From Actinomycetota bacterium (GTDB lineage: Bacteria > Actinomycetota > Acidimicrobiia > Acidimicrobiales > Ilumatobacteraceae), in contig VFYV01000011.1 of NCBI GenBank assembly GCA_016871395.1, positions 1 through 60,174 on the forward strand: a stretch of 60,174 bases of DNA, in the 5' to 3' direction. This document shows positions 43,524-60,111 of the stretch, one piece after another. The position numbers and the translations under genes were made by a program. Under the pieces are notes generated by a model that saw only the letters and a program-made list of their open reading frames with translations, made no database searches and was not told where the DNA came from. The stretch's first letter is position 1; every line of letters starts with the position of its first letter.

Positions 43524-44486
43524 TCAGCGGTCGAGGCGGAAGTCGGTGACTTGGGTGTCGTCGGCGCCGAGGTCGGTGAAATTGTCGTAGGCCCGAGCAG
43601 CCATGAATTCCTTCCACGCGAACGATCGGTAAAGCGCCCCGGATTCGCTCAATTCCGGCACGGGTTCGATGACCGAGTTCCGGGCCGGATTCTGGAAGTA
43701 GGGAATACTGAAACGGCGTCGATGGGTCATCGGTACCACGCGATGAACCGCCGCTCGGTAGCGATCGTTGGTCCAAGCCTGCATGCAATCTCCGAGATTG
43801 ACCACGATCGTTCCCGATGTGGGAGGAACATCGATCCAGCCATCGTCGAGCGACTCGGCCTGTAAACCCCCGGTGTCGTCCTGCAAGAGCAAGGTGAGTG
43901 TGCCGGGGTCGGTGTGATAGCCGAGTGCGGTTTCACCCAGTTCGGGTAGGCCCTCTCGTTCGGATTCTGGTACCGGATCACCGACCGGATAACAGTTCAG
44001 CCGAATCATGCTGCTGTGGCGGCTACCAGCGACCTTCGACCGCGAGTCGATTCGTAGGTCGAGGGCCCCGTGGATGAGGCTCATGGCCCGATCAGCCAGG
44101 CCGCTCAGTTCATCGAACAATTCGGTCATGGTCTCGCGGAAGCCCGGAAGCCCGCGGGGCCAACGGTTGCGGACGTCGATGGCGGCCACGGTCGGATCCA
44201 AAAAGTCGAACACTTCCTTGCTGTCACGCTTGCGCTTGGTGAGTTCGCGATCGAAGTAGCCCATGGGATTCTGGAGGTCGCGGACGATCTCGTTCTTGAT
44301 GCTCCGTTCGGCGTCGAAGAAGCGCTCGGTCTCGTGCCATGTTCGTTGGATCAACCCGTCCAGTCCGTGACCGCTCAGAAAGAAAAAGCCGTGATCCCGA
44401 CAGGCCGAGTCGAGGGCAAACATGGACGTTGTCGAAGGGTTCGAGATGTCGACGGTGGGCACGATGGACACGCCGTATGTTGCCAT
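43524..44486 (-). CDS. 2-oxoglutarate/Fe(II)-dependent oxygenase, isopenicillin-N-synthase-like
   Basis: 320 residues. The N-terminal DIOX_N-type domain (VSIVPTVDISNP, DHGFFFLSGHGLDG) is followed by the 2OG-Fe(II) domain. The iron ligands are in LGYHTDPGTLTLLLQDDTGG (H-x-D) near 195 and YRAAVHRVVPM (His) near 250, with RRRFSIPYF (R-x-S, 2OG binding) just after. GLQ/WIDVPP and VVNLGDCMQAWTN are further landmarks. Substrates of bacterial homologues are mostly unknown. ATG 44486 is used; ATG 44528 would add 14 residues and leave only 8 bases before the divergent CoA ligase. Confidence 0.9.
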   Translation of the reverse strand: MATYGVSIVPTVDISNPSTTSMFALDSACRDHGFFFLSGHGLDGLIQRTWHETERFFDAERSIKNEIVRDLQNPMGYFDRELTKRKRDSKEVFDFLDPTVAAIDVRNRWPRGLPGFRETMTELFDELSGLADRAMSLIHGALDLRIDSRSKVAGSRHSSMIRLNCYPVGDPVPESEREGLPELGETALGYHTDPGTLTLLLQDDTGGLQAESLDDGWIDVPPTSGTIVVNLGDCMQAWTNDRYRAAVHRVVPMTHRRRFSIPYFQNPARNSVIEPVPELSESGALYRSFAWKEFMAARAYDNFTDLGADDTQVTDFRLDR

Positions 44487-44536
44487 ACTTCGTTTGGTCG
44501 AACTCGTCTTGTGTATCAGTGGATTCATCGGCCAGA

Positions 44537-46258
44537 ATGAACGCCGTGATCCACCACTACCTCGCCGCCCGGGCTGAACTCGACTCTCCGGGCTCGCCCT
44601 TCGCCACTCACATGACCACCATCCGCGGGGTGCCCGCCAAATCCTTCGTGGCGGCACCGCCCACCATGCGGGCCATCTGGGAGACGACGGTGGTGCATGG
44701 CGACAAGGACTACTTGATCTATGAGGACGAGCGACACACGTATGCCGAGGTGCACGCGCAGGTGCGCAAGTTGGCGTCGTATCTGGTGGCCAACGGCGTT
44801 ACTCCCGGAAGTCGCGTGGCCATCGCCATGCGCAACTACCCCGAGTGGGTCGTGGGCTATTGGGCGGGCGTGTCCGTCGGAGCCGCGGTGGTGGGAATGA
44901 ACGCCTGGTGGACCCCGCCCGAGATGGAGTACGCGTTGAATGACAGTGAGCCGAGGGTGCTGATCGCCGACGACGAACGTCTGGAGCGTCTGGCGCAGAT
45001 GACCAGCCATCGCCCGATGCACGTCATCTCGGTGCGCTCCGACCGCGGCGTGTCCGGCGAGGGAACGACTTGGAGCGCCATCATGTCGGCCGCCGATCCG
45101 GGGATCCTTCCCGATGTCGCCATCGACACCGACGACGATGCCACCATTTTCTACACCTCGGGCACGACGGGTTTCCCCAAGGGCGCGCAGTTGACCAACC
45201 GTGGGTCGGTACACAACATCTTGAACATCGCGGCTATGACCACCGCGGTCGCCATGGCCGAGCAGAAGGCCATCGCCGCTGGTGATGTTCCACCCCCGCC
45301 GCCCCCGCCCCCGGTATTGCCGGCCGCTTTCATGGCACCCACCCCTTTGTTCCACGTGACCGCGTGCAACTGCATCTTGCATCCGGCCACTCTCACCGGA
45401 GCCAAGGTCGTGTTGATGTACAAGTGGGATCCGGGTCGCGCACTGGAGTTGATAGAGCGCGAGAAGGTCACCAATTTCTCCGGGGTGCCCACCATGAGTC
45501 GCGAGATGCTGATGCACCCCGACTGGGGTCGGCGCGACACGTCGTCGTTGGCCGGCCTCGGTGGCGGAGGCGCGGCGCTGCAACCGGACCTGGTGCACAA
45601 GATCGCCGGTGCATTGAAGAACGGTCAACCGTCGACCGGATATGGCATGACCGAGACGCATGGAATCATCACCGCGAACTCGTCGCGCTGGTTCATGGCC
45701 AAGCCCGAGTCATGCGGTCCCGCCGTCCCCACCCTCGAGACCAAATTGGTCGACGAGGAGGGTCGCGACCTCCCAGCCGGTCCGAACACCGTGGGCGTCC
45801 TGTGCGTGCGTGGGTCGGTCACCATCAAGGGCTACCTGAACCGATCAGAAGCCACCGCCGACACCATCAAGGACGGCTGGTTGAACACCGGTGACATCGC
45901 CCGAATCGACGAAGACGGTTTCATCTACATCGTGGACCGCGCCAAGGACATGGTGATCCGAGGTGGTGAGAATGTGTACTGCAGCGAGGTGGAGACCGCT
46001 ATCTACCACCACGATGCTGTTGCCGAGGCCTGCGTTTTTGGAATACCAGAGGAACGTTTGGGCGAGGAAGTGGCGGCGGTGCTGGTGCTTCGACCCGGCG
46101 CGTCACTCACCGAGGACGAATTGCGTCAGTTCCTGACCGTCAGCCTGGCCAAGCACAAGATTCCCACCAAGATCTGGTTCCGCACCGAGCCCGTCCCCCG
46201 CAACGCGAACGGGAAGTTCCTGAAGCGCGAACTGAAGAAGGAGCTCACCGGCTCCTGA
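44537..46258 (+). CDS. Acyl-CoA synthetase (AMP-forming), polyproline insertion
   Basis: 573 residues from ATG 44537. The enzyme activates a carboxylic acid to acyl-AMP and acyl-CoA. Motifs: P-loop IFYTSGTTGFPKGAQLTN near 202, GYGMTETHG near 370, GWLNTGDIARIDEDGF near 450, RAKDMVIRGGENVY near 471 and NANGKFLKREL with the catalytic Lys at the C-terminus. Near residue 252 is a run of eight prolines, which would require elongation factor P. The N-terminal extension reads HYLAARAELDSPGSPF. It resembles long-chain or medium-chain acyl-CoA ligases of actinobacteria; the acid is not known. Confidence 0.91.
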   Translation: MNAVIHHYLAARAELDSPGSPFATHMTTIRGVPAKSFVAAPPTMRAIWETTVVHGDKDYLIYEDERHTYAEVHAQVRKLASYLVANGVTPGSRVAIAMRNYPEWVVGYWAGVSVGAAVVGMNAWWTPPEMEYALNDSEPRVLIADDERLERLAQMTSHRPMHVISVRSDRGVSGEGTTWSAIMSAADPGILPDVAIDTDDDATIFYTSGTTGFPKGAQLTNRGSVHNILNIAAMTTAVAMAEQKAIAAGDVPPPPPPPPVLPAAFMAPTPLFHVTACNCILHPATLTGAKVVLMYKWDPGRALELIEREKVTNFSGVPTMSREMLMHPDWGRRDTSSLAGLGGGGAALQPDLVHKIAGALKNGQPSTGYGMTETHGIITANSSRWFMAKPESCGPAVPTLETKLVDEEGRDLPAGPNTVGVLCVRGSVTIKGYLNRSEATADTIKDGWLNTGDIARIDEDGFIYIVDRAKDMVIRGGENVYCSEVETAIYHHDAVAEACVFGIPEERLGEEVAAVLVLRPGASLTEDELRQFLTVSLAKHKIPTKIWFRTEPVPRNANGKFLKRELKKELTGS

Positions 46259-47303: not shown

Positions 47304-47699
47304 TCAGGCCAGAGCGGCCATCTGGGTGGCGAACACGTTCATGTCGAAGTAGTCGCGCCAGTGGGTGATCTTGCCGTCGCGAACGGTGAAGACCCCGGTG
47401 ACGGGCAGCTCGACCCAACCGTTGGCGAGACGATGACGGTCGAGGCGTTCGACGAACACGGTGTCGGCGTTGGTGGCGGTGGTGCGCACGATGAACTCGT
47501 TGCGGATGACGCCGGCGAAGGCCGGGATGAGCACCGCGCGCATTCCGTCGGGTCCGATCACGGTGCCGGCCTCGAAACCGAAGGGGACGTTGACGTACTC
47601 CATGTCGTCGGCGACGAATCTCACCGCCTCCTCGACGTCGTTGCCCTCGAAGGAGCGAAAGAAGTCGAGGACGGTGCTCAGAGGATCGTTCGTGGTCAT
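47304..47699 (-). CDS. Limonene-1,2-epoxide-hydrolase-like NTF2-fold protein
   Basis: 131 residues from ATG 47699. The core YVNVPFGFEAGTVIGPDG and RLDRHRLANGWVELPVTGVFTVRDGKITHWRDYFDM are characteristic of limonene-epoxide hydrolases, with Asp and Arg residues (LDRHR, WRDYFD) that form the D-R-D triad in this family. It would open an epoxide ring with water. The ATG overlaps the upstream membrane-protein stop (ATGA), so the two are one operon. Confidence 0.83.
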   Translation of the reverse strand: MTTNDPLSTVLDFFRSFEGNDVEEAVRFVADDMEYVNVPFGFEAGTVIGPDGMRAVLIPAFAGVIRNEFIVRTTATNADTVFVERLDRHRLANGWVELPVTGVFTVRDGKITHWRDYFDMNVFATQMAALA

Positions 47700-48145
47700 G
47701 TGGCGTTTCCTTTCCGACGGGGGAGCGTGTTCACCGATACCAATTGGTCGGAGACGAGGATGGCGGCCAATCCGAACAGGATCAGGGCCGCGACGTTGGC
47801 GAGTGCTGCACCCTCGTGGCCGTAGACGTCGGGCCACAACCCGACGAACAACCCGTCGAAGGTGACGGCACCCGCACTGGCGATCACCACGAACCGACGA
47901 CGGTCGAGGGCCAAACGATCGGCGAGGAATCGCAGGATCGCCACCGTCACCGGTCCGAGGGCGGCGGCCAGGGCGTACAGACCGAGTTTCGGCGCGGTCT
48001 GCGACAGCGCGTCGTCGGGGACAACGGTGAAGAAGAGCGCGAACGCCAAGGCGAAAACCATCCCCACCGGGTGGGCGATCCAGATTGCGCAGATCGAGCT
48101 CCGACGTGCCGAGACGGGGCCGTTCGAATCGTGTGTAGTGACCAC
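47696..48145 (-). CDS. Small membrane protein of unknown function
   Basis: With a GTG start at 48145 the product has 149 residues and four hydrophobic segments (PVGMVFALAFALFFTVV, LGLYALAAALGPVTVAIL, VIASAGAVTFDGLFVGL and ANVAALILFGLAAILVS). The GTG sits exactly at the predicted transcription start of TTGACG/TACGTT. No family was recognised. It is co-translated with the epoxide-hydrolase-like gene and probably repressed by the TetR protein, so a role in uptake or export of the same ligand is possible. Confidence 0.6.
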   Translation of the reverse strand: MVTTHDSNGPVSARRSSICAIWIAHPVGMVFALAFALFFTVVPDDALSQTAPKLGLYALAAALGPVTVAILRFLADRLALDRRRFVVIASAGAVTFDGLFVGLWPDVYGHEGAALANVAALILFGLAAILVSDQLVSVNTLPRRKGNAT

Positions 48146-49910: not shown

Positions 49911-50936
49911 ATGGGCGATGCAAAGCGGGTGGGGCTTCTGGCGTACGGTGCGATCGGGCACGAGCACAATGTGGCTGTTCAGAGCACCGACGGATTGGAA
50001 TTGGTCGCGGTGTGTGACACCAATCCCGATCGTCTCAAGGTCGCACTCGATCTCGCTCCGCGAGCATCGACGTTTCTGGACGCGACGGAGATGCTGGACT
50101 CCGGACTCCTCGACCTGGTGGTGATCTCGACACCTCCGAACACGCATTTTCGTTGGGCGAAGGAGGCGCTCTCGCGAGGTATCGACGTGGTTCTCGAGAA
50201 GCCCATGGCTCTCACCTCCGACGAATGTGACGAGTTGAGGAGCCTCGCCAAGGCTATGAACCTTTTGCTCGTCGTCTATCAGAATCGCAGGTTCGATGCG
50301 GATTTCGTCACGATGCGGGAGATCGCTCGGTCCGGAGAAATCGGTGAAGTCTTCCAATTCGACACCTTCATCGGCGGGTATTCGCGACCGTGCGACTATT
50401 GGCACTCGAATGCGGAGATTTCGGGTGGGGCGATCTTCGACTGGGGAAGCCATTTCATCGACCAAATTCTGAACATCATTCCCGACGAGGTGGCTCACGT
50501 GAGTGCGGTCAACCACAAACGTGTTTGGACTCACGCGACGAACGCCGATCACGCCCAGGTCGTGGTGACGTTCGTTGACGGCAAGCAGGCGACTTTCATC
50601 CACTCCGATTTGGCGGCCGCGCGTAAGCCCAAGTTCTTCCTCCTCGGGACGCAGGGTGCCGTCGTTGGTGATTGGGATTCCGCTGCTGAGCCAGCCGTCG
50701 CCGATCTACCGGCGATCCTCACCGTGCATGGCACCAACGGAATCTCACGGGTCGTTCCTCTGCGGGTCGACCCTCCCCATGAGTTCCATCGGTCGATCGT
50801 CGAGTTGATTCGATGTGGAACTCCGATGGAGGTCGATGCTCTCCAGTCCCGCAATGTCGTGGCCATCATGCAGGCCGCTGAGCAGTCCGCGGTGCAGAAC
50901 GGTCTCCCGGTGGTTCCGGACCTCCGGCGGTCCTGA
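49911..50936 (+). CDS. Gfo/Idh/MocA-family oxidoreductase 1
   Basis: 341 residues. The Rossmann start VGLLAYGAIGHEHNVAVQ has A-x-G-x-x-G instead of the usual GxGxxG; the family EKP motif is present as VVLEKPMALTSDE near residue 98 (Lys binds the substrate), and ISGGAIFDWGSHFIDQIL near 175 gives the catalytic Asp/His pair. It probably oxidises a hydroxyl of a sugar, inositol or their derivative with NAD(P). It is followed after 3 bases by a second family member, a pair typical of polyol pathways. Confidence 0.86.
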   Translation: MGDAKRVGLLAYGAIGHEHNVAVQSTDGLELVAVCDTNPDRLKVALDLAPRASTFLDATEMLDSGLLDLVVISTPPNTHFRWAKEALSRGIDVVLEKPMALTSDECDELRSLAKAMNLLLVVYQNRRFDADFVTMREIARSGEIGEVFQFDTFIGGYSRPCDYWHSNAEISGGAIFDWGSHFIDQILNIIPDEVAHVSAVNHKRVWTHATNADHAQVVVTFVDGKQATFIHSDLAAARKPKFFLLGTQGAVVGDWDSAAEPAVADLPAILTVHGTNGISRVVPLRVDPPHEFHRSIVELIRCGTPMEVDALQSRNVVAIMQAAEQSAVQNGLPVVPDLRRS

Positions 50937-50939
50937 CCC

Positions 50940-51890
50940 ATGACGGTGCGCTGGGGCTTTCTCGGCGCCGGCTTCGTTGCCAGTCGGGGCCTGGCCCCTG
51001 CCGTGCATCTCTCGCGGGGAGCAACCCTGTATGCCGTGGCGAGCAGAGATGAGAAGCGGTCGGAGTCACTCGAACCGGAGCGGGTGCACGCAAACTATGA
51101 CGAACTCCTTTCCGACGAGCGGGTCGATGCCGTGTACATCAGTCTCTCGAATGTTCAGCACGACGAATGGGTGACGAAATCGCTCGAGGCCGGAAAGCAC
51201 GTTCTGTGCGAGAAGCCTCTTGGTCTGAACGCCGCCGAGGTCGAGACGATGTTCGAATGCGCCTCTCGTCACGGACGCCTTCTGGTGGAAGCGGTGTGGG
51301 GAAGATGGCATCCACGATTTGCGCGACTGGTCGGGGTTGTCGAGAGCGGGGCGATCGGCGGGATCGAACACATCGAGACGTCATTCACCTTCGTCTCGGA
51401 GATGACCGACAACTATCGGTTGAACCCGAAAATGGGTGGAGGCGCGTTGCTCGACGTGGGCTGTTACCAGGCTCATGCTTGGGTCGCGCTGACGTCTGGT
51501 GCCCCCGATGTGGAGATCACTCGGGTCTCGCGAATGATCGGTCCGACGGGCGTCGATCTGACGACCGATGTCGCGGTTCGAATTCGCGATTCGATCACCG
51601 CCCGTGCGGTGAGTTCGTTCGCCATGCCCGGCGGGCAACAGTTCATCGTTCGTGGTTCTCATGGTCAGGTCAGCACCGAGTCGGGGGAGTCCTTCACGAC
51701 ATGGAACGAAAGCAGCTCGCTGAGGGTCAACGGCCTGCTCGAGGAATTCGATGTTTCGAACGCTTTCATCGAGATGGTCGAGAACGTGAGCCGGGTCATC
51801 GTGGGTGACCAAGGTTGGATCGTCCCGTCCTCAGACTCGATGCGGGTTGCCGAAATTCTCGATCTCATCGCGGGTCATCCGCAGACGTAG
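50940..51890 (+). CDS. Gfo/Idh/MocA-family oxidoreductase 2 (dihydrodiol dehydrogenase-like)
   Basis: 316 residues from ATG 50940. GFLGAGFVASRGLAPAVHL binds the dinucleotide; VLCEKPLGLNAAEVETM near 92 is the EKP motif; KMGGGALLDVGCYQAHAWVAL near 162 has the D-V-G-C-Y form known from dimeric dihydrodiol dehydrogenase/glucose-fructose oxidoreductase-like members, without the usual final His. EAVWGRWHPR near 118 has the Trp typical for them. It differs clearly from its neighbour and so may act on another step or isomer. It is the second gene of the operon. Confidence 0.86.
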   Translation: MTVRWGFLGAGFVASRGLAPAVHLSRGATLYAVASRDEKRSESLEPERVHANYDELLSDERVDAVYISLSNVQHDEWVTKSLEAGKHVLCEKPLGLNAAEVETMFECASRHGRLLVEAVWGRWHPRFARLVGVVESGAIGGIEHIETSFTFVSEMTDNYRLNPKMGGGALLDVGCYQAHAWVALTSGAPDVEITRVSRMIGPTGVDLTTDVAVRIRDSITARAVSSFAMPGGQQFIVRGSHGQVSTESGESFTTWNESSSLRVNGLLEEFDVSNAFIEMVENVSRVIVGDQGWIVPSSDSMRVAEILDLIAGHPQT

Positions 51891-52037
51891 TTTCTTCGTG
51901 GGCCGGTGTCAAAAACCCGATGCCGAGGTTCGCCTCCTCTGATCCACGTGCTCGGGATTGTTCGGAAATCAGTGAGCGGCGCCCACCCACCGCTGGTTAT
52001 GGTCCGTGCCGCGCCGACCGGACCACAGTCCCGCGTG
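51891..52037. other. Convergent intergenic gap
   Basis: Between the Gfo/Idh pair and the convergent PhyH operon. AGCGG (51975) and CCGCT (51990) can form a short stem that may act as terminator for one or both sides. Nothing else was recognised. Confidence 0.25.
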
Positions 52038-52907
52038 TCAGCCGCGTCGCCACACGATCGGGCAGTCGTCGTCGTGCAACTCGGCACCCTCCACGACATT
52101 GTGATGATGCGCCTTCTTCGGTGAGCCCGGCCGGGTGAGATACACGGTGTCATCACCGCAATAGCGCAGGCTGATCGCTCGTCGTTGACGAGTCGAGGTG
52201 TTCGGTCCCGCACCGTGAATCGTGCGGGCATGATGGATTGTGACGTCGCCCGGCTCGGTGTCGAAGGTGACGATCTGGCACTCACCTCGTTGTGACATCG
52301 ACTCCACATCGGGCACGGCGGTTCCCTCGGTTCCGGGAATAACCATGGACGAGACGAAAAAATTGGGCTGATAGATGTCGGGCCACGAGTGCGAACCGAC
52401 GACGAAGCGCACCGCACCGGAGTCCTCGGTCACAGAATCGAGTGGGCACCACATCGTACAGATCTTGGTCCCATCGCAGTGGAAGTAGCCGAGATCCTGA
52501 TGCCAAGCCGTCCGCTCGACCGTGCCCGATTCCTTGAACAGCACGCTGTCTTCCCACAAGTGAATCCGAGTCGACCTCATGATCCGCCCAGCGATGGCCG
52601 GAAGTGCGGAGTGGCACGAAAAGTCCCGAAACTCCCGGTGTTCCAGCCAATGATCGACTCCGGCGAAGAATTTGCCGCGCCCCGAGTCGGGGACGTCTTC
52701 GCGTTGGACCCTCTGCCCGCTCGCTGCGATGGCGTCACCCATCGCCGACAGATCGGCGACACCGTTCGTCTGCACGAGAGTGGCCACTGGATCGCTCATG
52801 TCGTGCAGCAACTTCGGATCGAGTAGGCCCCTCAGGCAAACGATCCCGTCACGCCAGAAAGTATCGACCTCGTCGTCGGTCACATCACGAAGCATCGAGC
52901 CATTCAT
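52038..52907 (-). CDS. Phytanoyl-CoA dioxygenase (PhyH)-family oxygenase
   Basis: 289 residues. PhyH enzymes are Fe(II)/2-oxoglutarate hydroxylases or halogenase relatives. Metal ligands are visible in TAWHQDLGYFHCDG (H-x-D) near 133 and HHARTIHGAGPNTS (His) near 228, followed by RRAISLRYCGDD with the Arg for 2OG. DWHQ and GSHSWPDI are usual landmarks. It would hydroxylate a small molecule, and the neighbouring Gfo/Idh and SDR could oxidise the new hydroxyl. It is the last gene of a three-gene operon on this strand, 2 bases after the SDR. Confidence 0.87.
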   Translation of the reverse strand: MNGSMLRDVTDDEVDTFWRDGIVCLRGLLDPKLLHDMSDPVATLVQTNGVADLSAMGDAIAASGQRVQREDVPDSGRGKFFAGVDHWLEHREFRDFSCHSALPAIAGRIMRSTRIHLWEDSVLFKESGTVERTAWHQDLGYFHCDGTKICTMWCPLDSVTEDSGAVRFVVGSHSWPDIYQPNFFVSSMVIPGTEGTAVPDVESMSQRGECQIVTFDTEPGDVTIHHARTIHGAGPNTSTRQRRAISLRYCGDDTVYLTRPGSPKKAHHHNVVEGAELHDDDCPIVWRRG

Positions 52908-52909
52908 AA

Positions 52910-53659
52910 TTACCCTTTCGCTGAAAATCCACCGTCCACGACGAGGGTGTGTCCCGTCATGAATCGACTCGCACTCGAGGCGAGAAACAAGACCGCGGGG
53001 GCGATTTCGTCGGGCTCGCCTATACGCCCCAGAGGTGTCCGGTCGAGATGGGGGCGCGTCAGCGCGTCGAGAGTCAGCATCGGTGCGGTCATCTTCGAAG
53101 CCACCAAGCCGGGAGCAATCGCATTCACACGAATGTTGCTACCGGCGTATCTGACCGCCAGCGTCTTCGTCATCTGAACGACCGCAGCTTTCGCCGCACC
53201 GTATCCAGGAACGAACTCGACGGCGAAAAAGGATGCGAGTGAGGCCAAATTGATCACGGCGGCGCCCCCCGCCAATTTGGAACGGCTCAAAGACGGTTGG
53301 AGTAATCGTGCCAAGCGAAACGCCGCCGAGACGTTTATCTGCAGGGACTCCTCGAAAACATCAGGGTCGTACTCGTCTCGCCCATTGGGCATCACCTGAC
53401 CCGCATTGTTCACGAGAACGTCGAGAGCGTCGATGGACCCGGCCAGGTCGCAAATCTGTTGCCGATCGCTCATGATGCACTGCCGGTAATCGAATCGTCT
53501 CAGATCACTTTCGTAGTCGTCGGTCGAACTGCGTGTTCCCGTGACGATGACGTGAGCCCCCGCAGCAGCGAAGGCCGAAGCAATCGCCAAGCCGATCCCG
53601 CTCGACCCACCTGTGACCAGTACCTCTGATCCGGTGAAATCGAAGTCGACGCTGTTCAC
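52910..53659 (-). CDS. Short-chain dehydrogenase of the sulfotransferase locus
   Basis: 249 residues from GTG 53659, chosen because GTGA overlaps the stop of the Gfo/Idh gene and AAAAGG precedes it (ATG 53674 would add 5 residues). Motifs: VLVTGGSSGIGLAIASAF (TGxxxGIG), NNAGQVMPNG near 87, LASLASFFA (Ser) near 133 and GYGAAKAAVVQMTK (Tyr, Lys) near 149, then APGLVASKM and the C-terminal TGHTLVVDGGFS. It likely interconverts a hydroxyl and ketone. Typical core length, with no extension. Confidence 0.9.
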   Translation of the reverse strand: MNSVDFDFTGSEVLVTGGSSGIGLAIASAFAAAGAHVIVTGTRSSTDDYESDLRRFDYRQCIMSDRQQICDLAGSIDALDVLVNNAGQVMPNGRDEYDPDVFEESLQINVSAAFRLARLLQPSLSRSKLAGGAAVINLASLASFFAVEFVPGYGAAKAAVVQMTKTLAVRYAGSNIRVNAIAPGLVASKMTAPMLTLDALTRPHLDRTPLGRIGEPDEIAPAVLFLASSASRFMTGHTLVVDGGFSAKG

Positions 53660-54654
53660 CAGACCTTTTCCCATTTCCTCGATCGCGCACTACGGACGAT
53701 GGCGTTGGCCGCCGCCACCTCTCCGAGAGAGTAGCGAGCATCAGCGTCCAAAGGTTTTCCATCGAGGATCGCGGCCTCGAAATCCCTCCAGACACCCCCG
53801 TAACTGTCCATGTAATTCCCGCGTCCGACGACCGTGCCCTGCCAGTCCTTGCCGTCGAACAATCTGACTTCACCCAATGCCGAGATCACGATCTCACCCG
53901 TAGTGCCGGTGAATTGGAAGTGGGGTTGCAGTCCGACAGCACCGGTCGCCAAGATCACGTCGAAACTGGCCACCACGCCCGACTGGAAAAGACACAGAGA
54001 ACGAACCAGGGATTCGCCCTCCATCTTCTCCCACAGACGACCGGTGACCGCGACAACCTCGTCGATCTCACCCAAGATCATCCGGAGAGGTCGCATCCAG
54101 TGGGAGCCAGTGTCCAAGGCGACTCCGCCGCCGGCAGACGCCTGGCGAAAACGCCACGATTGATCGCTGGGGTAGAACTCTTTGGTGATGCCAAAGTTGT
54201 GCCACGAGCGCGCAGTCACGATTTCGCCGATCGCTCCCTCGGCGACGAGCTTTTGCGCCATGACGACTTCGGGCCAATACTGGGCGTTCTCGGTCAGCAT
54301 GAAAACACGATCGCCGTGCCGAGCGGCAGTCGCCAAGATTCGTTCACAAGCATCCAGTGTCGGGGCCATTGGTTTCTCCAAAGCGACGTGAACGCCCGCC
54401 TCCAGAGCTTCGGTGACCAACTTTTCGTGAAGATCGTGAGGAACCAAAATCGCCAATGCGTCGACGCCGACGTCCAGTGCTTCGGTGATCGACGAGCAAG
54501 CGACACTATTGGTCGACGTCGCCAGTGTTTCGGCTTGGGCGGGCACGACGTCGACACAGGCGGTGATGGTCGTGCGTTCAGCATGTTTCAGTGCCGTCGC
54601 GTGCCATTGGGCGATGGCTCCACAACCGACGATTCCGAGCCGAACGCTCTCCAC
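53656..54654 (-). CDS. Gfo/Idh/MocA-family oxidoreductase 3
   Basis: 332 residues from GTG 54654. The N-terminus GIVGCGAIAQWHATALKHAE is a standard cofactor loop; VALEKPMAPTLDACERI near 92 is the EKP motif; AGGGVALDTGSHWMRPLRMIL near 171 gives Asp and His of the site. It is closest in style to sugar dehydrogenases of the family. First gene of the operon with the SDR and PhyH oxygenase; it diverges from the sulfotransferase across 48 bases. A TAGTCT box seven bases before the GTG suggests a leaderless message. Confidence 0.87.
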   Translation of the reverse strand: MESVRLGIVGCGAIAQWHATALKHAERTTITACVDVVPAQAETLATSTNSVACSSITEALDVGVDALAILVPHDLHEKLVTEALEAGVHVALEKPMAPTLDACERILATAARHGDRVFMLTENAQYWPEVVMAQKLVAEGAIGEIVTARSWHNFGITKEFYPSDQSWRFRQASAGGGVALDTGSHWMRPLRMILGEIDEVVAVTGRLWEKMEGESLVRSLCLFQSGVVASFDVILATGAVGLQPHFQFTGTTGEIVISALGEVRLFDGKDWQGTVVGRGNYMDSYGGVWRDFEAAILDGKPLDADARYSLGEVAAANAIVRSARSRKWEKVW

Positions 54655-54702
54655 CTCGGGCAGACTACTATCTGGTGGAAGTCACCGGAACAATGGGGCC
54701 CA
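54655..54702. promoter_or_regulatory. Short divergent promoter region with overlapping -10 boxes
   Basis: In the 48 bases between the Gfo/Idh and the sulfotransferase genes TACTAT (54666-54671, plus) and TAGTCT (54667-54662, minus) share two positions. On the minus strand TTCCGG lies 17 bases upstream. RNA polymerase can therefore occupy only one side at a time, which couples the two operons. Confidence 0.45.
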
Positions 54703-55956
54703 ATGCCGACGAAAATCCGCATCTCCGATCTGGGCGATCCGCAGTTGAGCGACATTCAACAAATGGCTCGAGATTATGGAGACAGCCTGTCCCTGGACAT
54801 GTCGTCAGCGGGCGTCTTGGGAGATGCCATCGCTCGTACCGGACTCGATGACTTTGGTCCGATGGACTTCGTCGACCGACTCGACATGTGGCTGGAAGAA
54901 GTTGCGAGCGACCCGGATCGTCTCGGTATCGGCCAGCTTTCCCTGCGGAACAGTTGTGTGCGTTACGCGGCGAATCGTCTCTTGACGCGTGATCTACTCC
55001 GTCGTCATCCCGAGATCCACGACATCAAGATCACCCGACCGATAATCATCGTCGGATTACCGAGAACAGGTACGACCCACCTGTTGAACGTCCTCTCAGC
55101 CGACACCAGGCTGCGCTCGATGCCTCTGTGGGAGAGTTACGAACCGATCGCGATGCCTCATGAGGCGCCCGGGGACGATGGTGTCGACCCACGCTATGCG
55201 CGGTGTGCCCGGGAGTGGGAGCAGATGCAGATGGTGACGCCGCACGTCGCCTTGATGCACCCGATGGACCCGGATCACGTGCACGAGGAAATCGAGTTGA
55301 TGCTGCCGGACTTTTCCTCCTACAACCTGGAGTGGGTCGCGCGCTGCCCACGTTGGCGGGATTACTACCTCTCCCACGATCAGCAGCCCCATTACGACTA
55401 CATGCACACGATGCTCAAAGTGCTGACGTTTCTACGTCCGCGAAGCCGCTGGATCCTCAAGTCACCGCAACACTTCGAGCAAATCGGTCCTTTGCTCAGG
55501 ACCTTTCCCGATGCAACCATTGTCATGACTCATCGTGACCCGGTGTCGGTGATTCAGTCCGCGGCCACGATGATGACCTACGCGGCGCGTATGGCGTATC
55601 GAACGATCGATCCTGGTTGGTACATCGACTACTGGACCGACCGGATCGAGAAGCTGCTGACGGCCGCGGTGCGTGACGTGCATCTGATCCCCGAGGGTCG
55701 ACGAGTCGACGTGCGTTTCCAGGATTTCATGGCTGATGATCGAGCGACGATTCAGCGGGTGTTCGAGTTCGCCGGCCACTCCCTCGATGAGCAGGCGACG
55801 CGACAGATCGAGCAGAGACTCGAGAATCGTTCGCGAGAGGGGCAGGCGACCGTGGAGTACGACGTGCGAGCGGATTTCGGGCGTCAGCCAGCAGAGATTC
55901 GGGAGCGATTCGTGGCCTACATGGAGAAATTCGGCGTCGACGCGGAGGTGAGATGA
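54703..55956 (+). CDS. PAPS-dependent sulfotransferase family protein
   Basis: 417 residues from ATG 54703. IIVGLPRTGTTHLLNVLS near 118 is the 5'-phosphosulfate binding loop, and ATIVMTHRDPVSVIQSAATM near 270 is the 3'-phosphate motif (Arg, Ser). The central helical part WESYEPIAMPHEAPGDDG and the WILKSPQHFEQIGPLL stretch are typical of the bacterial Sulfotransfer_3 family. It would transfer sulfate from PAPS, made by the cysD/cysNC proteins nearby. The acceptor is unknown. Ends one base before the MBL-gene start. Confidence 0.88.
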   Translation: MPTKIRISDLGDPQLSDIQQMARDYGDSLSLDMSSAGVLGDAIARTGLDDFGPMDFVDRLDMWLEEVASDPDRLGIGQLSLRNSCVRYAANRLLTRDLLRRHPEIHDIKITRPIIIVGLPRTGTTHLLNVLSADTRLRSMPLWESYEPIAMPHEAPGDDGVDPRYARCAREWEQMQMVTPHVALMHPMDPDHVHEEIELMLPDFSSYNLEWVARCPRWRDYYLSHDQQPHYDYMHTMLKVLTFLRPRSRWILKSPQHFEQIGPLLRTFPDATIVMTHRDPVSVIQSAATMMTYAARMAYRTIDPGWYIDYWTDRIEKLLTAAVRDVHLIPEGRRVDVRFQDFMADDRATIQRVFEFAGHSLDEQATRQIEQRLENRSREGQATVEYDVRADFGRQPAEIRERFVAYMEKFGVDAEVR

Positions 55957-55957
55957 G

Positions 55958-57229
55958 ATGGGCGTGGGTGAGGTCGAGCAGCAGGTCGATGTTCTCATCG
56001 ATACCCGTCCGGGCAAGGAGTTGTTGGAGCCCAAGTACGAAGATGTCGCGTATGAAGTCGCTCCGAACATCTACCGCTCAGGGGGTTCGACTGCCGCCTA
56101 CATGATCGTCCACGACGCTGGACGCATCATCGTCAACACCGGTATGGGCTTCGAGGCGGTGCACCACAAGGCGGTTTTCGACGCGATTTGTCCGGGACCT
56201 ACGACCCACATCTTGACGACGCAGGCCCACGTGGACCATGTCGGAGGGGTCGGGTTGTTTCGTGAACCCGAAACGGTTTACATCGCCCAGGCCAACAACC
56301 CGGCATGTCAGGGGGACGACGCGCGAATCGCCAGCCTGCGCTTGCGAACCGCCCAAGTGTGGTTCGACGTTTCGGGGGCCGCCGCGCAGCGGTTCGCTCG
56401 GCAACATCCCGGAATTCCGATGCGACAGGACAAACCGGTACCCGATGTCATGTTCGGGGATTTCCACGAATTCACGACGGGAAATCTCGAGGTTCAGCTG
56501 ATTGCCGCGTCGGGCGAGACCATCGATTCGATGATTGTTTTTCTGCCTCGAAGTCGCATCGCCCTCATTTCGAATCTGCTCGGACCCCTTTTCCCGCACT
56601 TTCCGAATTTGAACACGTTGCGCGGTGATCGCTACCGCCTCGTCGAGCCCTACTTGGCGACCGTGGACAAGTTGCGCTCTTTGCATCCGCGGATGATCAT
56701 CCCTGGACGGCATCTGCCGATCGAAGGAACCGAGTTGCTCGATGCCTGTTTGGCCCGTTTGCATGGCGCGGTCGATTTCGTCCATCGCAAAACCTTGGAG
56801 GGAATGAACGCGGGCACGGATGTCTTCACGTTGATGAAGGAAATCGTCTTACCACCCGAACTTCGGGTCGGGCAGGGCTATGGCAAGGTCGCGTGGGCGG
56901 TGCGAACGATTTGGGAGACCTACATGGGATGGTTCCACCTGCAGTCGTCGACCGAGTTGTACCCCGTTCAGTCGAGGGAGGCCACGAGTGAGTTGGTGCA
57001 ACTCGTGGGGGTGGAGGCGGCCTGCGATCGGGCGGCGGTGTTGGCCGCCTCGGGAGAGCCGGTTTTGGCGATTCACATCGCTGAGGCCATCTTGTCGATA
57101 GCGCCCGCGCACGAGGGGGCGGCCAAGGTCATGGTGACGGCCCATGAGGTCCTTTTGGCAACCGGAGGGGACGTGAGCTTTTGGGAATCGGGCTGGCTTC
57201 GTAGCCAGGCCGACAAGTGGCGATCGTAG
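55958..57229 (+). CDS. Metallo-beta-lactamase-fold protein resembling alkylsulfatases
   Basis: 423 residues. The MBL part has THILTTQAHVDHVGGVGLF near 85-104: H-x-D-H is kept, but the first His of T-H-x-H-x-D-H is Gln. Later come LIAASGETIDSMIVFLP and NLNTLRGDRYRLVEPYL, which line up with the T-P-G-T-E-A and N-L-Y-T-L-R-G stretches of SdsA1-type alkylsulfatases. A C-terminal helical part (ETYMGWFHLQSSTEL, then TSELVQLVGVEAACDRA) resembles the alkylsulfatase dimerisation domain. It begins one base after the sulfotransferase. A sulfatase, or another hydrolase with a changed metal site, are both possible. Confidence 0.75.
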   Translation: MGVGEVEQQVDVLIDTRPGKELLEPKYEDVAYEVAPNIYRSGGSTAAYMIVHDAGRIIVNTGMGFEAVHHKAVFDAICPGPTTHILTTQAHVDHVGGVGLFREPETVYIAQANNPACQGDDARIASLRLRTAQVWFDVSGAAAQRFARQHPGIPMRQDKPVPDVMFGDFHEFTTGNLEVQLIAASGETIDSMIVFLPRSRIALISNLLGPLFPHFPNLNTLRGDRYRLVEPYLATVDKLRSLHPRMIIPGRHLPIEGTELLDACLARLHGAVDFVHRKTLEGMNAGTDVFTLMKEIVLPPELRVGQGYGKVAWAVRTIWETYMGWFHLQSSTELYPVQSREATSELVQLVGVEAACDRAAVLAASGEPVLAIHIAEAILSIAPAHEGAAKVMVTAHEVLLATGGDVSFWESGWLRSQADKWRS

Positions 57230-57310
57230 GGAGACTCGGCGATCGTCGCGGTGATCGACCCTGTCATTCGTGAGGCGATTGCCCGACTCATTCGACCGAC
57301 CACGGCTCCC
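57230..57310. other. Convergent gap between MBL gene and cysNC
   Basis: 81 bases; a small self-complementary element (GCGATCGTCGC) is the only structure seen. Confidence 0.25.
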
Positions 57311-59218
57311 TCATCGCTGGTCGAAAACACCTCGTGAATCCAGCACGGTAAGCAGGACTCGCACACACTCATCGACGCTCGAGGCCGACGTGTCGAGCCG
57401 TACATCGGGGTTGGTGGGAGTCTCGTACGGCGAGTTCACTCCGGTGAAGTTCGGGATGAGCCCCGCCTTGGCCTTCGCGTACAAGCCCTTCGGATCGCGA
57501 CTCTCGACCAAATCGAGGGGAGCATCGACGAAAACCTCGATGAAATCGGACGATCCGATGATTTCGGCGGCTCGCTCCCGTTCGGATCGAAAGGGTGAAA
57601 TGAACGAAACGATGGTGACGATCCCCGCATCGACGAAAAGCTTCGCGACTTCCGCCACCCGCCGGATGTTTTCTGCTCGGTCAGCCTCCGTGAAACCCAA
57701 ATCGGCGTTGAGCCCGTGTCTGACGTTGTCTCCATCGAGAACGAACGTGCGAAGGCCCCGGCGATGGAGATCGACTTCGAGAGCGTTCGCAATCGTCGAC
57801 TTCCCGCTTCCGGACAGGCCGGTGAGCCAGATCACCAAGGCTTTTTGCTGGTTCAGTTGCTCGCGTTGTTCACGACCGACCGACAACTCCTGCCACCGAA
57901 TGTTCTCGGCCCGGCGCAACGAGTGTTGGATCATTCCGGCCCCAACGGTGCTGTTGCTTCTCCGATCGATCAACACGAAGGCCCCGGTGTTTCGATCGAC
58001 GTCGTACGGGTCGAAAGCGATCGGGGCGGCAGTCGAAACATTGCAGAGTCCGATTTCGTTCAAGCCGAGAGTGAGCGCCGGTACCTGCTCGTTCGAATTG
58101 ACGTCGATTCGACATTTCAAACGATCGACGTGTGCCCGCACCTCCTTGCTCCCGATCTTCAGGAGATACGAGCGTTGAGGAATCATCTCACTCTCCGCCA
58201 ACCACACCAATCGGGCCTCGAAATGATCGGTGATCGTGGGTGGCTCCACGACCCCCGACAGAAGATCACCCCGGCTGACATCGATCTCATCTTCGAGGAG
58301 GATGCACACACTCTCGCCGGCGACGGCCACCTCACGGACCCCGTCGAAGTCGGCGAAGTCGGCGACGGCGGTTTCGCGACCACTCGGGTTCACGCGAACA
58401 CGATCGCCCCGCGAAATGATTCCGCTGGAGATCGTTCCCATGTAACCACGAAAGTCGGGGTTCGGACGAGAGACTCCTTGGACCGACATTCGGAACGGAC
58501 GGGAAGAATCGTGCCCGCGCACGGGCAGGGTCTCAGCGATTTCGAGGACCGAAGGTCCGGTGTACCAGGGCATGTTCGTCGAGGGGAGCGACAGATTTTC
58601 ACCGGTCAACGCGCACACCGGAACCACATGGACACCCTCGAAACGCAGTGATCGAGCGAATTCGAGAAACTGCGTGGAGACGGCGGCGAAAACGTCCTCG
58701 TGGTAGCCGACGAGATCGAGTTTGTTCACCGCCACGACCACGTTCTTGATACCGAGAATATCGACGAGTAACGAGTGTCGCCGTGTCTGGGTCGACACAC
58801 CTTTACGAGCGTCGATCAAGATGACCGCAAGTTCGGCGGTGGATGCCCCGGTCACCATGTTGCGGGTGTACTGCTCGTGACCCGGCGTGTCGGCAACGAT
58901 GAAGGCGCGTTTGTCGGTGGCGAAAAATCGATACGCCACATCGATCGTGATTCCCTGTTCGCGCTCCGCCTGTAGACCGTCAGTCAGGAGTGCGAAGTCG
59001 ATCGTGTCCCCTTGGGTGCCGTGATGCCGTGAATCGTCCGCCAACGACGCCAGTTGATCGTCGAAGATCTGTTTCGAGTCGTAAAGAAGGCGACCGATCA
59101 TCGTGCTCTTCCCGTCGTCCACGCTTCCACAGACGAGCAAGCGCAGAAGGTCCTTTGCTTGTTGGGTTTCGATGAAGTCAGCGACGGCATCGGCGGCCTG
59201 CTCGGGCGCGGACCGCAT
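57311..59218 (-). CDS. cysNC: Sulfate adenylyltransferase large subunit fused to APS kinase
   Basis: 635 residues. Residues 1-430 are CysN: GTPase P-loop CGSVDDGKSTMIGRLL near 31, DTPGHEQYTRNM (G3), NKLDLVGY (G4), then the beta-barrel domains. From about 450, CysC: LTGLSGSGKSTIANAL, VLDGDNVRHGLNADLGF, RAENIRRVAEVA, and SFISPFRSERERAAEI (the phosphorylated Ser position), and the closing GVNSPYETPTNPDV. With CysD it makes APS at the cost of GTP, then PAPS. The fusion is usual in actinobacteria. One-base overlap with cysD (TGATG). Confidence 0.95.
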   Translation of the reverse strand: MRSAPEQAADAVADFIETQQAKDLLRLLVCGSVDDGKSTMIGRLLYDSKQIFDDQLASLADDSRHHGTQGDTIDFALLTDGLQAEREQGITIDVAYRFFATDKRAFIVADTPGHEQYTRNMVTGASTAELAVILIDARKGVSTQTRRHSLLVDILGIKNVVVAVNKLDLVGYHEDVFAAVSTQFLEFARSLRFEGVHVVPVCALTGENLSLPSTNMPWYTGPSVLEIAETLPVRGHDSSRPFRMSVQGVSRPNPDFRGYMGTISSGIISRGDRVRVNPSGRETAVADFADFDGVREVAVAGESVCILLEDEIDVSRGDLLSGVVEPPTITDHFEARLVWLAESEMIPQRSYLLKIGSKEVRAHVDRLKCRIDVNSNEQVPALTLGLNEIGLCNVSTAAPIAFDPYDVDRNTGAFVLIDRRSNSTVGAGMIQHSLRRAENIRWQELSVGREQREQLNQQKALVIWLTGLSGSGKSTIANALEVDLHRRGLRTFVLDGDNVRHGLNADLGFTEADRAENIRRVAEVAKLFVDAGIVTIVSFISPFRSERERAAEIIGSSDFIEVFVDAPLDLVESRDPKGLYAKAKAGLIPNFTGVNSPYETPTNPDVRLDTSASSVDECVRVLLTVLDSRGVFDQR

Positions 59219-60111
59219 CAGAAGTAACCTTCGGCTTTCTTCTTCTCCATCGAGCCCGTTTGGTCGTGATCGATCATGCGACCTTGACGCTCGGAGGTTC
59301 GGCTCGTGAACATCTCGGCGAGGATCATCGATAAGTCGGTCGCCTCGCTTTCCACTGCGCCGGTGAGCGGATAGCAGCCCAGGGTTCGAAATCTGACCAT
59401 CTTTTCCTCGACAACCTCGTCGGCCCGTAATTTCATCCGTTCATCATCGACCATGATCATCATCCCGTCTCGCACGACGATGGGGCGCTTCTTGGCGAAA
59501 TAAAGGGGCACGACCGGAATGTCTTCGGCGTGGACGTATTGCCAAACGTCGAGCTCCGTCCAGTTGGACAGGGGGAAGACTCGGATGGACTCTCCGGGAG
59601 CGTGTCGGGCGTTGTAGATGTTCCACAACTCCGGTCTTTGATTTTTCGGATCCCACGCATGTTGCGACGTTCGGAAGGAGAAGACCCTCTCCTTGGCCCG
59701 TGACCTCTCCTCGTCTCGACGTGCACCCCCGAAAGCGAGGTCGAAGCCTCCTTGGTCCAGTGCCTGTCTGAGACCCTCCGTTTTCCAAAGATCGGTGTGC
59801 ATCGACGAGCCGTGTTCGAACGGGTTGATGTTCAGCCGTACGCACTCGGGGTTGATGTGGACGATGAGATCGATACCGGGATCATTCGCCATCTCGTCGC
59901 GAAAGGTGATCATCTCCTTGAACTTCCAGGTCGTGTCGACGTGCAGGAGCGGAAAAGGCAACGGTGCCGGAAAAAACGCCTTCCGGGCGAGGTGCAACAT
60001 CACCGAACTGTCCTTGCCGATCGAATACAACATGACGGGCTTTTCAGCTTGCGCGACGGCTTCTCGAATGATGAACATCGCCTCGGCTTCCAAGGACCGC
60101 AGGTAACTCAT
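59218..60111 (-). CDS. cysD: Sulfate adenylyltransferase small subunit
   Basis: 297 residues. The PP-loop [20 protein letters not shown] (SxGKDS) near 27 binds [40 protein letters not shown] near 150 and [14 protein letters not shown] near 203 are strong family landmarks. The C-terminal [21 protein letters not shown] is typical CysD. It activates sulfate with CysN. No transporter, PAPS reductase (cysH) or sulfite reductase is next to it in the window, so PAPS for sulfation is a likely use. A purine-rich ACGAGGGGACGA before the ATG is a ribosome binding site. Confidence 0.96.

Follow-up and report, generated by a model that had tools for sequence, protein, structure and literature searches.

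A conserved sulfotransferase locus of Acidimicrobiia suggests a small-molecule pathway in which sulfate may be a temporary group

Introduction

Why should a gene for a sulfotransferase be kept next to one whose product resembles an enzyme of the opposite activity, a sulfatase? This question is raised by a contig (VFYV01000011.1, assembly GCA_016871395.1) from an actinobacterium of the family Ilumatobacteraceae, class Acidimicrobiia. The window, by which we mean the whole 60,174-nt stretch analyzed here, corresponds to the whole of contig C11; the genome, 1.95 Mb in 43 contigs, is 87% complete. Near its end, at 49911 to 60111, a preliminary description had placed nine genes, all of which are there and intact: three Gfo/Idh/MocA dehydrogenases (Gfo1 to Gfo3), a short-chain dehydrogenase/reductase (SDR), a PhyH-type oxygenase, a sulfotransferase (STF) that would use 3'-phosphoadenosine 5'-phosphosulfate (PAPS), an alkylsulfatase-like protein of the metallo-beta-lactamase fold (MBL), and CysD and CysNC (Table 1). 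We propose that the locus encodes a sulfation-dependent small-molecule pathway in which sulfate serves as a temporary activating group, a reading to which we give slightly less than an even chance. It is favored because the steady partner of the sulfotransferase has a predicted alkylsulfatase fold.

Results and discussion

A conserved unit around the sulfotransferase

Most of these genes form a real unit, consisting of Gfo3-SDR-PhyH, STF-MBL and cysD-cysNC. Orthologues of STF (at least 55% identity) occur in nine of 150 genomes of the family. MBL and Gfo3 were each found in eight of the 150, and all of these lie within the nine STF genomes (Fisher p = 1.7e-12 for either protein against STF, uncorrected for common descent). 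MBL is absent from G082, where the STF gene starts at base 31 of the contig, and two genomes (G040, G102) carry a Gfo3-SDR-PhyH operon on a different contig from STF.

The association extends to the class. Across 395 genomes of Acidimicrobiia, where the scans scored only four or five first-look candidates per genome and counts may therefore be low, Gfo3 occurs in 16 and STF in 63. Both are present in 14 of the 16 Gfo3 genomes (p = 1.7e-10), and within 3 kb of each other in 11 of these 16 (overlaps and distances were counted by eye). Gene order varies: Gfo3-SDR-STF-MBL in G375; MBL-STF-Gfo3-SDR in G166, G250 and G305, with another PhyH protein two genes before MBL in G250; Gfo3-SDR-PhyH-MBL-STF in G193, G273 and G228; and the divergent order of the window in G025, G231 and G043 (where a contig end cuts MBL). 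The two Gfo3 genomes without an STF orthologue, G319 and G477, have, in the slot between MBL and Gfo3, a protein about 27% identical to STF. The proteins of the two genomes look alike at their motifs, and that of G477 matches PF13469 at 114.5 bits. STF is on a different contig in G320 and G323, although MBL adjoins Gfo3 in the latter, and is unlinked to Gfo3 in G294, whose locus was not fetched. Gfo3, SDR, STF and MBL are thus a conserved unit in Acidimicrobiia, often with PhyH. Co-conservation of the sulfotransferase with the oxidoreductases, on which the preliminary description had staked its proposal beforehand, was found in all eight Gfo3 genomes of the family and in 14 of the 16 of the class.

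The same description had assigned all three Gfo/Idh proteins to one pathway, an idea that we reject for Gfo1. At a threshold of at least 66% identity, Gfo1 occurs in 41 of the 150 family genomes and in four of the nine with STF (Fisher p = 0.26), and is a widespread family gene that we judge to be outside the unit. The first comparison covered nine other STF loci (L028-L036), and Gfo2 was found in just one of them, L028, beside Gfo1. In the sister genome G143 the two lie about 3.5 kb from PhyH, separated from it by other genes. Its association with Gfo1 is the sole ground on which Gfo2 is set aside.

For Gfo1, then, and probably for Gfo2, chance proximity is the right explanation. That the whole locus consists of chance neighbors with no common pathway is, in our judgment, almost certainly wrong. 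The co-occurrence of Gfo3, STF and MBL speaks against it, and this co-occurrence holds even when the genes are unlinked, with the sulfotransferase replaced in the same slot in two genomes. At 12 control loci of paralogous sulfotransferases (24-31% identity; several of the contigs are short), none of MBL, Gfo3 or PhyH had a match, and five had some SDR at 27-34% identity. At one of the 12, L128 (G091:C161), the paralogous sulfotransferase (29% identity) lies about 2 kb from a CysNC-CysD-CysQ-like set of its own, possibly a distinct sulfation locus in the same family.

PAPS supply apart from sulfate assimilation

CysD and CysNC are together expected to yield PAPS. The genome has one detected adenosine 5'-phosphosulfate (APS) kinase, which is the domain of the window's CysNC, and one sulfotransferase detected with the two families searched, PF13469 and PF00685, both of which find STF. 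Neither cysH nor a sulfite reductase is present on the window contig, which ends 63 bp before the start of cysD and so has no readable sequence upstream of it. Contig C20 of this genome carries a separate assimilation operon, cysH-cysD-cysN, together with a gene that resembles sulfite/nitrite reductases. Its cysN product has 420 residues and no APS kinase, the reductase scores below the cut-offs of its kind, and two siroheme-type genes (named by eye) are also on C20. Because the single APS kinase and the sulfotransferase are both in the window and the assimilation operon is elsewhere, CysD-CysNC are, from these gene assignments, best read as a supply for sulfation. The earlier claims that the window has no cysH and that its PAPS genes are devoted to sulfation agree with this arrangement.

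Could cysD-cysNC instead be the ordinary assimilation pathway, with STF merely its neighbor? CysD/CysNC lie beside cysH in G043 and G025. The CysH of our genome also passes two NCBIfam models named phosphoadenylyl-sulfate reductase (NF002537, 237.6 against a cut-off of 154; TIGR00434, 175.8 against 165.1). These observations count for assimilation and against our own proposal. Yet a second cysD-cysN, without APS kinase, adjoins cysH in this very genome, and the same CysH scores higher with an APS-reductase model (188.9 bits) than with a PAPS-reductase model (161.1 bits), both under cut-off, and has a CC...CxxC pattern that we take to be diagnostic. Nine of the 12 genomes examined in the genus are missing APS kinase; six of these nine have a cysH orthologue (two of the six with an in-frame stop) and three have neither. 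An APS kinase match is present in 9 of 9 STF genomes and in 93 of 141 others, some of them weak (p = 0.058). We judge an assimilatory role for the window's genes very improbable.

The sulfotransferase and its sulfatase-like partner

The PAPS motifs of STF are invariant across 40 aligned sequences, as G114-L-P-R-x-G-T-T and as H273-R-D-P with S282, which we take to be the 5' and 3' motifs, respectively. The preliminary description had noted both, and the alignment bears it out.

The assignment of MBL as alkylsulfatase-like holds for its fold and fails at its metal site. In a predicted model compared by Foldseek, which shows ranked matches and in which the absence of a family excludes nothing, the alkylsulfatase fold is kept over 385 residues. 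The protein has the MBL and dimerization domains and ends at 423 aa without an SCP-2-like third domain, a family not found among its family-profile matches. The zinc ligands of the class III enzyme SdsAP are His192, His194, Asp196, His197, Glu303, Glu322 and His367, as given in PMC5426288, with SdsAP numbers that we derived from those of SdsA1 by a fixed shift. In 54 of 54 MBLs, counted over the 53-member cluster plus the window protein, Gln replaces the first zinc histidine, His192, and Ser or Gly replaces the bridging Glu322; Arg takes the place of His367 in 48 of the 54. The MBL of L154 is an example of a relative with His retained at the position of Arg251. A further MBL (L067, 32% identity) stands outside the cluster and the count, yet is a row of alignment A6, which was used for the model. 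His91, Asp93, His94 and Glu187 of MBL are kept in 54 of 54, a set we presume to be like that of working one-metal enzymes such as GOB-type lactamases. Because three SdsAP-type ligands are altered, MBL may not be a sulfatase.

Spread beyond the class

A scan of named genomes yielded 193 STF loci, of which we compared the best 80 (at least 51% identity), using a home-made gene caller for the relatives; L034 and L082 represent one contig, and the same holds for several other pairs made up of a G-numbered and a named locus. The MBL cluster is present in 53 of the 80 and the SDR cluster in 51. Among 49 loci with 3 kb of sequence on both sides, MBL lies within 3 kb in 29, SDR in 32 and both in 26. 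Pairwise identities of STF and MBL correlate over 54 loci with r = 0.83, a value expected from co-inheritance but one that species descent alone also gives. A compact set joining sulfate transfer to a sulfatase-like partner occurs in several phyla, and within Acidimicrobiia it persists despite rearranged gene order and even despite replacement of the sulfotransferase. Its carriers include the culturable, non-pathogenic Nocardioides alcanivorans, Actinocorallia populi and Parahaliea mediterranea.

The oxidizing enzymes vary around this core. Gfo3 is present in nine loci and a zinc-type dehydrogenase cluster in 23, never both; in 20 the latter stands directly before SDR, where some other loci have Gfo3. 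P450 and PhyH likewise occur in nine loci each and in none together. On the STF tree, built from rows of at least 380 residues, no fewer than three changes are required to account for the rows with a Gfo3 partner. Only six of the 80 loci, including those of Rhodococcus hoagii, Actinomadura and Actinocorallia, have CysD and CysNC within about 10 kb of STF; one locus (L034) has an unbroken row STF-MBL-CysD-CysNC-CysQ-like.

Several recurrent neighbors deserve mention in their own right. Loci of Nocardioides alcanivorans (L102, 8512-13758) and R. hoagii (L115, 4902-13748) have in common the order TetR, SDR-STF-MBL and an old-yellow-enzyme gene (PF00724, tested in L102), to which R. hoagii adds an adjacent CysNC-CysD-CysQ-like set. 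A small glyoxalase-fold (VOC) gene often adjoins the unit, divergent or downstream in Acidimicrobiia (L153-L156; L154 12177-12683) and upstream of STF in Myxococcota and Halieaceae (L109 9537-9989, L049, L108); PF13669 was tested in L109 and L154. A protein that weakly matches the xylose-isomerase-like TIM barrel, below cut-off (E 0.0002), is found in nine of the 80 loci (for example L068 12568-13434, L034 481-1347). Six loci titled Bifidobacterium breve or Ferrithrix group (L038, L047, L061, L062, L079, L080) are of the Acidimicrobiia type, and their titles look mislabelled.

Proposed pathway and rival readings

In the proposed pathway, CysD/CysNC would make PAPS, PhyH (perhaps P450 in other lineages) would hydroxylate the substrate, and Gfo3 (perhaps the zinc-type dehydrogenase elsewhere) and SDR would oxidize it. 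STF would then transfer sulfate to a substrate alcohol, and MBL would act on the resulting ester, with sulfate as a leaving group at carbon and not as a decoration. The analysis itself shows gene content, co-occurrence, operon linkage, the separate assimilation operon and the predicted folds of STF and MBL; the reactions, their order and the transient nature of the sulfate are what we infer. The substrate would be a small hydroxylated, perhaps alicyclic, compound. As a more specific and rather doubtful form of this proposal, STF and MBL may constitute a two-step alcohol editor: once an alcohol had been sulfated, a one-metal enzyme of sulfatase-like kind would attack it at carbon, and the dehydrogenases would use the product of opposite configuration or of elimination. 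If true, this would be a new general means by which bacteria spend PAPS to invert or remove hydroxyl groups.

The sugar, cyclitol or glycan substrate of the preliminary description did not gain support. The best score of Gfo3 against named NCBIfam models is 84.7 bits for IolG (inositol 2-dehydrogenase), where the cut-off is 355; with levoglucosan dehydrogenase it scores 82.6 against 650, and Gfo1 and Gfo2 are likewise under each listed cut-off for a named dehydrogenase. The place of Gfo3 before SDR goes, moreover, to the zinc-type dehydrogenase in 20 loci. A sugar or cyclitol is possible, on the strength of the family names only. As candidates for Gfo3, inositol, levoglucosan and UDP-GlcNAc dehydrogenase are not supported.

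Several observations weigh against transient sulfation. The strongest is the altered metal site of MBL. The partners are also not constant: 27 of the 80 loci are without the MBL cluster and 29 without the SDR cluster (some cut by contig ends), and 14 of the 49 with full flanks have neither within 3 kb. In the family, Gfo3 is absent from G080, and a tenth STF relative (G099, 44%, not counted among the nine) is on a 6.4 kb contig with no partners. The rarity of linked CysD and CysNC in the 80 loci belongs here as well, as do their location on a contig apart from STF in the sister genome G143 and beside cysH in G043 and G025. Finally, a UTP-glucose-1-phosphate uridylyltransferase cluster (PF01704, 407 bits in the one locus tested) adjoins STF in L053, L057, L077, L078, L093 and L095, all without the MBL cluster and titled Deltaproteobacteria, Myxococcota or bacterium. 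This neighbor hints at a sugar context in those six loci, which perhaps represent another use of the same sulfotransferase family.

The metal site keeps a sulfated end product a serious rival, one that we consider possible though somewhat unlikely. It follows the preliminary description minus Gfo1 and Gfo2: PhyH, Gfo3 and SDR would tailor a small molecule, STF would cap it, and MBL would be a non-hydrolytic helper or trim excess. The intact PAPS motifs, the adjacent PAPS supply and the six uridylyltransferase loci fit this reading, as does an MBL whose zinc site no longer assures sulfate removal. The retained fold and the four invariant MBL residues argue the other way, and the tested recurrent neighbor families (most single neighbors were not annotated) include no exporter, glycosyltransferase, polyketide synthetase or peptide synthetase; eight of the 80 loci do share an ABC ATPase cluster, an assignment made by eye. 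Given the sulfatase-like protein that accompanies the sulfotransferase, the sulfated compound need not be the end product. If it is, the locus would be the sign of a so far undescribed class of sulfated actinobacterial metabolites.

In an unlikely third reading, the locus would break down or detoxify a foreign alicyclic alcohol (a terpenoid, or a steroid-like or mycosporine-like compound), with sulfation serving to open or dehydrate it. The patchy spread is consistent with such a route, as are genes of the TetR, P450, old-yellow-enzyme, FAD_binding_2 and luciferase-like kinds that occur close to the unit in single lineages, but these neighbors vary between lineages. It also fits that alkyl sulfates are the substrates of class III enzymes and that hydrolysis of sulfated sugars was known only for arylsulfatases (PMC5870055). 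The nearest solved relative of PhyH, MysH (101 bits, where the next distinct enzyme scores 41, and 136 with a profile), counts for this reading too, although the match is distant and makes a mycosporine link a weak lead. His136, Asp138, His231 and Arg243 of PhyH, presumably its iron and 2-oxoglutarate residues, are invariant in nine sequences.

Locus layout

The Gfo3-SDR-PhyH genes diverge from STF-MBL, with 48 bp between the starts of STF and Gfo3. SDR and Gfo3 overlap by 19 bp, STF and MBL are separated by a single base, and CysNC and CysD, which overlap by one base, lie 81 bp past MBL. Two further genes lie 2-6 kb before the locus, a 2-oxoglutarate oxygenase of a different family (43524-44657, PF03171/PF14226) and a limonene-epoxide-hydrolase-like protein (47304-47837, PF07858).

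Table 1. Genes of the locus, in window coordinates.
Gene	Product	Position	Strand	Remark
Gfo1	Gfo/Idh/MocA neighbor	49911-50936	+	Judged outside conserved unit
Gfo2	Gfo/Idh/MocA neighbor of Gfo1 (pair also in L028)	50940-51890	+	Judged outside unit; own spread not searched
PhyH	PhyH-type Fe/2-oxoglutarate oxygenase	52038-52907	-	Nearest solved relative MysH
SDR	SDR dehydrogenase	52910-53674	-	Relatives adjoin STF in several phyla
Gfo3	Gfo/Idh/MocA dehydrogenase	53656-54654	-	Sole one of three Gfo tied to unit
STF	PAPS-dependent sulfotransferase, 417 aa	54703-55956	+	PF13469, 146.7 bits, cut-off 27
MBL	Alkylsulfatase-like metallo-beta-lactamase-fold protein, 423 aa	55958-57229	+	PF14863, 48.8 bits; PF00753, 27.7 bits
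CysNC	ATP sulfurylase large subunit + APS kinase fusion	57311-59218	-	NF004035, 932.6 bits, cut-off 715
CysD	ATP sulfurylase small subunit	59218-60111	-	TIGR02039, 503.3 bits

Comparison with known systems

We found no description of such a locus in open-licence full texts, nor by titles and the starts of abstracts. It does have parts in common with known systems. PAPS genes standing apart from assimilation beside a sulfotransferase recall the cysDNC/nodPQ-type supply, which we take to be a known arrangement; here, by contrast, no glycan-building gene is among the named neighbors in the window. Among oxygenases, MysH, an Fe/2-oxoglutarate dioxygenase of mycosporine-like amino acids, is the closest solved comparison for PhyH. 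The class III alkylsulfatases SdsA1, SdsAP and Pisa1, whose class is marked by C-O cleavage with inversion, differ from the window MBL, which has no SCP-2-like third domain, has three zinc ligands changed and adjoins an enzyme of opposite activity. The mycobacterial PF13469 sulfotransferases STF9 (2z6v) and STF1 (2zq5), for which the structure listing names no acceptor, are 23-24% identical to the window STF.

The sulfotransferase domains of curacin and olefin synthase (4gbm, 4gox) are, as we understand them, parts of polyketide-type megaenzymes with a thioesterase partner, whereas the protein described here is a free enzyme with an MBL partner. Polyketide-type systems are known cases of PAPS use in small-molecule metabolism. 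If sulfate is indeed temporary in this locus, PAPS would gain a small-molecule role outside them.

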